DNA of 64,000 nucleotides from Leptolyngbya sp. NIES-3755 (GTDB taxonomy: Bacteria; Cyanobacteriota; Cyanobacteriia; Leptolyngbyales; Leptolyngbyaceae): the NCBI GenBank assembly GCA_001548435.1, contig AP017308.1, forward strand, positions 1,497,030 to 1,561,029, read 5' to 3'. This document shows, in pieces, positions 53,842 to 54,428 of the stretch. The position numbers and the translations under genes are program-made. A model generated the notes under the pieces. The model saw only the letters and a program-made list of their open reading frames with translations. It had not been told where the DNA came from and did no database searches. Within the stretch, counting starts at the first letter, position 1, and each line of letters opens with the position of its first letter.

Positions 53842-54055
53842 TTAAAAATCTGCCAAACCTTGATCCTCAATTTGGATTTCAGGGTTTTTCGTCATCAGCA
53901 TCCAAGCATCGCGATATTTGGCAGAGCGCGGCTTACGCTGACGTTTTTCTGTTTCAACAAGATGGATCTCGCTGCCATAGTGAATAAAAACCTCATTTGA
54001 GCGCATGAAGAATCGCTGCTTGCTCTGCAATGTCGCCTCTGAGTTTGGTGTCCAT
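53842..54055 (-). pseudogene. Collapsed PD-(D/E)XK homing-endonuclease gene (group I intron-associated type)
   Basis: On the minus strand ATG 54055 opens MDTKLRGDIAEQAAILHALK, then stops at TGA 53993-53995. In another frame the tail continues VFIHYGSEIHLVETEKRQRK, PRSAKYRDAW and stops at 53842. I recognise both as the two ends of the PDDEXK_5 (group I intron-associated PD-(D/E)XK endonuclease) family, related to I-Ssp6803I. The middle, which carries the catalytic residues, is deleted and the ends are fused out of frame. Normal members are about 150-200 residues; about 70 codons remain. It lies just downstream of the tRNA-fMet gene and past its terminator. Confidence 0.72.
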
Positions 54056-54075
54056 TCCTTGATTTCTCTAATGCA

Positions 54076-54105
54076 AAAAGCCCCAGCTTTTACACTAGGG
54101 CTTTT
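54076..54105 (-). terminator. Terminator of the tRNA-fMet gene
   Basis: On the minus strand AAAAGCCCTAG pairs with CTGGGGCTTTT (one mismatch) a few bases beyond the tRNA CCA end, followed by T residues. Confidence 0.7.
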
Positions 54106-54109
54106 CATT

Positions 54110-54428
54110 TGGTGGCGGGGCATGGATTTGAACCATGGACCTTCGGGTTATGCTTACCACTACAACTTTCGTTGCCTGAATCAATCAGTTTGTGGTCTGG
54201 ACTGTCCCTTCACCCTCAGCTTTCCTGTTAGGGTGCTTGCCTAACCAGTCTCTACACCTTCCTCTTTCGAGGCTTGGTTCGGGATTACCACGCTAATGGC
54301 TTCCCCGACTTAGACAAGTAATCACATATTAGTTTCCCAATATGCCGCCCATCTAGAAAATCAGCTTATAAGCGTCTAACTGACTTTCGATCCGAGCCCG
54401 ACGAGCTACCAGACTGCTCTACCCCGCG
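54110..54428 (-). tRNA. Initiator tRNA-Met (CAU) interrupted by a group I intron
   Basis: Exon 1 is 54395-54428, beginning CGCGGGGTAGAGCAG with the GTCGGGC anticodon-stem strand. Exon 2 is 54110-54152 (CATAACCCGAAGGTC ..., T arm GGTTCAAATCC, CCCCGCC, then encoded ACCA). Joined, the loop reads CTCATAA between GGG and CCC stems, as in initiator tRNAs, and the 77-nt product folds properly. The first base pair is a C1-C72 mismatch, consistent with the initiator rule that position 1-72 is not paired. The intron splits the anticodon loop between U33 and C34. Confidence 0.92.
54153..54394 (-). ncRNA. Group I intron, 242 nt, no reading frame
   Basis: Ends fit group I rules: the last exon base is U and the last intron base is G. 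The core words GGTAATCCCGAACCAAG (54273-54289) and AGAGACTGG (about 54243-54251) with CAGTCCAGA (54196-54204) match the Q/R/S elements and P7 of cyanobacterial tRNA introns of the IC3 group. Self-splicing is expected. Unlike the known tRNA-fMet intron of Synechocystis, which encodes an endonuclease, this one is ORF-less. P1 pairing was not verified. Confidence 0.85.

Follow-up and report, generated by a model that had tools for sequence, protein, structure and literature searches.

Mobile group I introns are regarded as composite elements; the question usually asked of them is how an endonuclease enters an intron. The window analysed here, a stretch of 64,000 nt from Leptolyngbya sp. NIES-3755, raises a question about the opposite arrangement. 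On its minus strand it holds an initiator tRNA gene (tRNA-fMet) split by an intron and, past a terminator-like hairpin, the two ends of an endonuclease gene. The homologous enzyme I-Ssp6803I is encoded in the tRNA-fMet group I intron of Synechocystis (PMC1995217). We asked why the gene lies behind the tRNA in the window and in which direction such genes have moved.

Matching of exons to those of congeners placed the whole split tRNA-fMet gene at 54428–54110 (minus strand). Its 5′ exon (54395..54428, ending in CGTCGGGCT) occurs unsplit in four congeners (G002, G004, G005 and G007), where it is joined to the 3′ exon (54110..54152, from CATAACCC to the CCA end) with 0 nt between them. Because the exons in these congeners are identical and have no gap, the boundaries of the 242-nt intron (54153..54394, minus strand) are certain. 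The empty alleles set the 5′ splice site after a U and the final intron base as G (GGGCU/C...G/CAUAACCC, with slashes at the splice sites). A covariance search recovered the conserved group I core (P3–P8), with a match to Rfam RF00028 over the full model length at E=7.2e-10 in a permissive search, its score of 44.6 bits falling slightly under the curated cutoff of 50 bits. Together with the empty sites, this match bears out the initial annotation, which had described a minus-strand split tRNA-fMet with a 242-nt intron lacking a reading frame.

The locus is poorly served by standard settings: default ARAGORN missed the split tRNA-fMet in the window, Rfam at the gathering threshold gave no match for the window tRNA or intron, and ARAGORN with introns allowed found the 242-nt intron while calling the anticodon wrongly. 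The intron sits in the only tRNA-fMet copy found in the window genome (G000), in which no uninterrupted tRNA-fMet matched anywhere else. Given that no unsplit copy matched in this genome, the intron would presumably need to self-splice.

Between the tRNA and the endonuclease remnant lies a terminator-like hairpin with a T-run (54075..54105, minus strand). Beyond it, translation and alignment to an intact congener gene (G001) identified the N-terminal part of the endonuclease (53996..54055, minus strand), which starts with an ATG at 54055 and runs for the first 20 codons (MDTKLRGDIAEQAAILHALK) before a TGA. The C-terminal part, comprising the last 50 codons and the stop, follows in another frame (53842..53994, minus strand), and the open reading frame that contains it matches PDDEXK_5 with E=2.9e-5 and 24.5 bits, below the cutoff of 26.1. 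Both ends align to the G001 gene with exactly one internal block gone, a net 251 bp with GAGG at both of its edges, and because of this alignment the remnant is no chance match. The two ends of a PD-(D/E)XK endonuclease gene fused out of frame, as had been proposed from the window alone, were therefore correctly recognized. Codons between 20 and approximately 105 are missing, and D36, Q49 and K51 with them; judging by the alignment, the net 251-bp deletion is evidently what killed the window endonuclease, with the intron retained. A 93-aa open reading frame at 53842–54123, which starts within the 3′ end of the tRNA, was rejected as a gene.

The surroundings of the remnant offer some further observations. 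Directly 3′ of it, a gene on the minus strand (51411–53702) encodes a 763-aa helicase with a C-terminal HNH domain, like PbeA and type IV restriction helicases. The interval between the two holds a strong imperfect palindrome at 53721–53783 (AAAACTGCGGGTGAGGGTGCTG ... CAGTACCCTTAACCGCAGTTTT), which may be a small repeat element; an Rfam miRNA match at this position is surely chance. A CPBP-like gene, recognized by eye, and not the helicase gene comes next after the tRNA in G005 and G007 and after the endonuclease in G001.

Comparison of the tRNA-fMet locus across the genus revealed an intact gene of 154 aa at the same spot in G001, alongside the intron. Its product matched the I-Ssp6803I structure 2OST over residues 2–147 (E=9.5e-64) and PF11645 (PDDEXK_5) with E=5.7e-52, so that full-length homology is seen in the intact relative, the window copy being a remnant only. 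The metagenome-assembled genome of Phormidium tanganyikae FI6-MK23 carries an identical gene. Other congeners show further states: in G003 the intron is kept and the gene is broken after approximately 20 codons, with a 3′ end on a separate contig; G006 has the intron and no gene; and G002, G004, G005 and G007 have neither. Such a range of states, alongside the window's deleted gene and retained intron, is the picture that a gain, decay and loss cycle of a homing element would be expected to leave. Because a congener has an intact outside gene, relocation came before decay in the window lineage. The initial annotation had offered two readings; an endonuclease that acted on the locus from a position beyond the intron and has since decayed is the better supported, and a gene that fell apart while leaving the intron does not fit the intact outside gene of the congener.

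We then searched 84,980 species genomes with three of these endonucleases, aligned to form the query, and determined placement by intron-aware tRNA search and exon matching. The scan yielded 80 loci, which are the best matches to a query built from one inside gene and two outside genes of cyanobacteria; the shares of inside and outside loci among them are thus not population frequencies. The gene lay inside the tRNA-fMet intron at 37 of the 80 loci, mostly beginning 15–45 nt past the 5′ splice site, and outside, just 3′ of an intron-split tRNA-fMet, at 41. These 41 loci have a free-standing endonuclease near an ORF-less intron of approximately 240–340 nt, as in collaborative homing. The outside gene began no more than 160 nt from the tRNA end at 35 of them (median of all 41, 78 nt), and a strong hairpin separated tRNA from gene at every one (41/41; −24.9 kcal/mol at the median). 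In those 35 close loci, the ATG followed the hairpin at a median distance of 31 nt. Nearly all Nostocales found, some other filamentous cyanobacteria, many Bacteroidota and one Pirellulaceae bin have the outside arrangement, so that the downstream placement is not the rarity for which it was initially taken. At the remaining two loci (L077 and L104) the gene lay 3′ of a tRNA 3′-end fragment at the edge of an apparent integrase island, with an intron-related tRNA-fMet match elsewhere in each genome; here an island apparently separated the endonuclease gene from the intron-split tRNA-fMet.

Inside loci were spread over many phyla, also in the endonuclease tree, with many coming from metagenome bins, which can be misnamed. 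One inside-type locus from a Leptolyngbyaceae bin (L055) groups with support of 98/86 with loci from bins named Proteobacteria and Ktedonobacteria (L048 and L060), reflecting either cross-phylum transfer or misbinned contigs. Phage homologues were distant only (29–39% identity), and a search of plasmids for homologues returned none.

Flanks 3′ of tRNA genes are common landing sites, and islands and other inserts are present at some of these loci; an unrelated PD-(D/E)XK gene might conceivably have settled at a tolerant tRNA 3′ site and be functionally unconnected with the intron. The distribution contradicts this reading, which we find barely credible: across several phyla, 41 loci have the gene at the same site, in every case with the intron and in none with an unsplit tRNA-fMet, and the intron of this very tRNA gene encodes the homologue I-Ssp6803I (PMC1995217).

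The link between gene and intron was also apparent among 386 cyanobacterial genomes, 18 of which carried the gene in whole or in part (near-full-length in 14, remnant-only in 4). An uninterrupted tRNA-fMet pattern was found in 333 of the 386, and all 14 genomes that carry a near-full-length copy lacked it (hypergeometric 1.6e-13, with relatedness ignored). For inside genes this association would be trivial; for outside genes it would be expected if the intron shields its chromosome against cleavage by the enzyme. Of the four remnant-only genomes, one is the window genome and the other three have an uninterrupted tRNA-fMet, which in two of them, G079 and G383, is still followed by the endonuclease 3′ end. 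Loci L127 and L128 retain the endonuclease 3′ end behind an unsplit tRNA-fMet; there, the intron was therefore either lost cleanly or the tRNA allele replaced. Across 27 cyanobacterial outside loci, distances between introns correlated with those between endonucleases (Mantel r=0.85), which fits a linked unit and also fits joint vertical descent. Several genomes of one family (G091, G149, G248, G379 and G397) have two unsplit tRNA-fMet copies approximately 150 bp apart.

Outside genes evolve under purifying selection: dN/dS had a median of 0.090 and a range of 0.034–0.250 over 213 related pairs. Residues E11, D36, Q49 and K51, which we take to be the active site of I-Ssp6803I, were kept in 49 of 49 outside rows. 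Long-term selection of this strength could reflect host use, the protein having been domesticated for a non-homing role, such as regulation or assistance in splicing, that would account for its staying near the tRNA. We regard such domestication as very unlikely, given that the catalytic residues are invariant, that three members of one genus retain the intron although their gene is broken or gone (G000, G003 and G006), and that its presence is patchy, with the 18 of 386 genomes including remnants.

The direction of movement was legible in the ends of the genes. At inside loci, the last codons extend into the intron, so that the P2 hairpin and a core segment (CACCTGTCAAATTCGGGGAAGCC) are translated as ...SPVKFGEA..., and outside genes of Nostocales end in ...ENCVxSPVQFGEAGF-stop. 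Consensus DNA of 21 Nostocales tails matched the core segment at 19 of 23 nt in exact register (p≤5e-5 by a codon-shuffle control); the tail of a single locus, L054, shares 20 of the 23 bases. The result rests on the fixed-register test and on a longer profile in which the first codons also encode protein; a profile limited to the intron from P3 on did not score above codon-shuffled controls with nhmmer. Because there is no reason for intron core to be present in a protein gene that lies past a terminator, we infer that the Nostocales outside gene was once inside the intron. The fragment is clear only in Nostocales and is not visible in the lineage of G001 and the window or in Bacteroidota outside genes; in the endonuclease tree, the window-lineage enzyme groups with those of Nostocales, its sister group there, with moderate support (90/81).

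The opposite order, in which a free-standing endonuclease already adapted to the tRNA-fMet target stood beside an ORF-less intron and later invaded it, has a precedent in phage collaborative homing (PMC3984707). It also accords with an inside locus (L108) nested in an otherwise outside Bacteroidota cluster, and with Bacteroidota outside genes that mostly stop where an intron-encoded tail would start and hold no intron fragment. The translated intron core of the Nostocales outside genes needs an inside ancestor, however, and inside loci extend across many phyla in the tree; an ancestral outside position therefore seems unlikely to us. In bootstrap trees, position changed 5–8 times. A single origin of all outside genes was weakly rejected (AU p=0.0345, for a group named after seeing the data), and a single origin of the cyanobacterial outside genes was not rejected (p=0.655). 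We give roughly even odds to the general reading that endonucleases left tRNA-fMet introns in at least one event, and probably in several spread over different phyla, giving rise to a linked two-part element behind the terminator in which the intron would serve as self-protection and payload and the gene as driver, brought along by co-conversion.

For the window itself, we consider it quite probable that the locus is a decayed copy of a physically split mobile group I intron, with the intron as immunity and the linked endonuclease as driver. In its intact form, represented by G001 and dozens of other species, the element comprises an ORF-less intron in the tRNA-fMet anticodon loop and an I-Ssp6803I-type gene approximately 50–130 bp behind the tRNA, past the terminator. 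The enzyme would cut unsplit tRNA-fMet genes where the intron inserts; repair from an intron-bearing copy would bring in the intron, co-conversion of the 3′ flank would bring in the endonuclease gene, and the intron, by splitting the target, would protect the carrier. In the cyanobacterial lineage the gene would have moved from the intron to the spot behind the terminator, a placement that would keep it near the cut. Alongside the observed anatomy, distribution, selection and Nostocales intron fragment, homing, co-conversion and the cleavage specificity of the outside enzymes are predictions from sequence.

Expression of outside genes may hinge on read-through of the tRNA terminator, with its hairpin present at all 41 loci. 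The inside gene of Synechocystis was among the strongest mRNA signals on an array (PMC3516471), so that a move to behind a terminator would be expected to reduce expression, and we speculate that lower expression and a compact intron favour the outside position. More generally, the same enzyme family occupies two positions at the same host gene in many species, with stages of gain, decay and loss within one genus; the intron fragment gives the direction in one group, and the order of events is open to test by sequence, cleavage and homing assays. Intron endonucleases of the PD-(D/E)XK type are often not in the intron, and their link to it is easily missed in annotation.

I-Ssp6803I (Synechocystis PCC 6803, slr0915; PDB 2OST; PF11645, PDDEXK_5) belongs to the same protein family over its full length and has the same host gene, and the close relatives G143 and G182 have inside loci with a 655-nt intron, as long as the one listed for Synechocystis. 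By contrast, the gene in the window and at 41 related loci lies outside the intron, 3′ of the tRNA and its terminator, and the intron of the outside loci is ORF-less, at approximately 240–340 nt. No description of this outside arrangement was found in the open literature covered, which for this family names I-Ssp6803I alone, as an intron-encoded enzyme; we call the arrangement new provisionally. Collaborative (trans) homing has been described for F-CphI and the cyanophage psbA intron and for a second phage system (PMC3984707). The resemblance lies in a free-standing endonuclease paired with an ORF-less group I intron, for which one shared target was proposed there (PMC3984707). Unlike the phage systems, the tRNA-fMet loci lie on bacterial chromosomes, in an essential initiator tRNA gene, with a PD-(D/E)XK enzyme and in dozens of species of several phyla, and the Nostocales carry sequence evidence that the enzyme gene left the intron. 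Bonocora and Shub reportedly described in 2009 a free-standing homing endonuclease, T3 gene 5.3, that was pre-adapted to the intron site, together with I-TslI. As in that pair, homologous enzymes are found both inside the intron and beside the target gene; there the target is intronless and the inferred movement runs from outside to inside, whereas in Nostocales it runs from inside to outside, the reverse of the route usually proposed.
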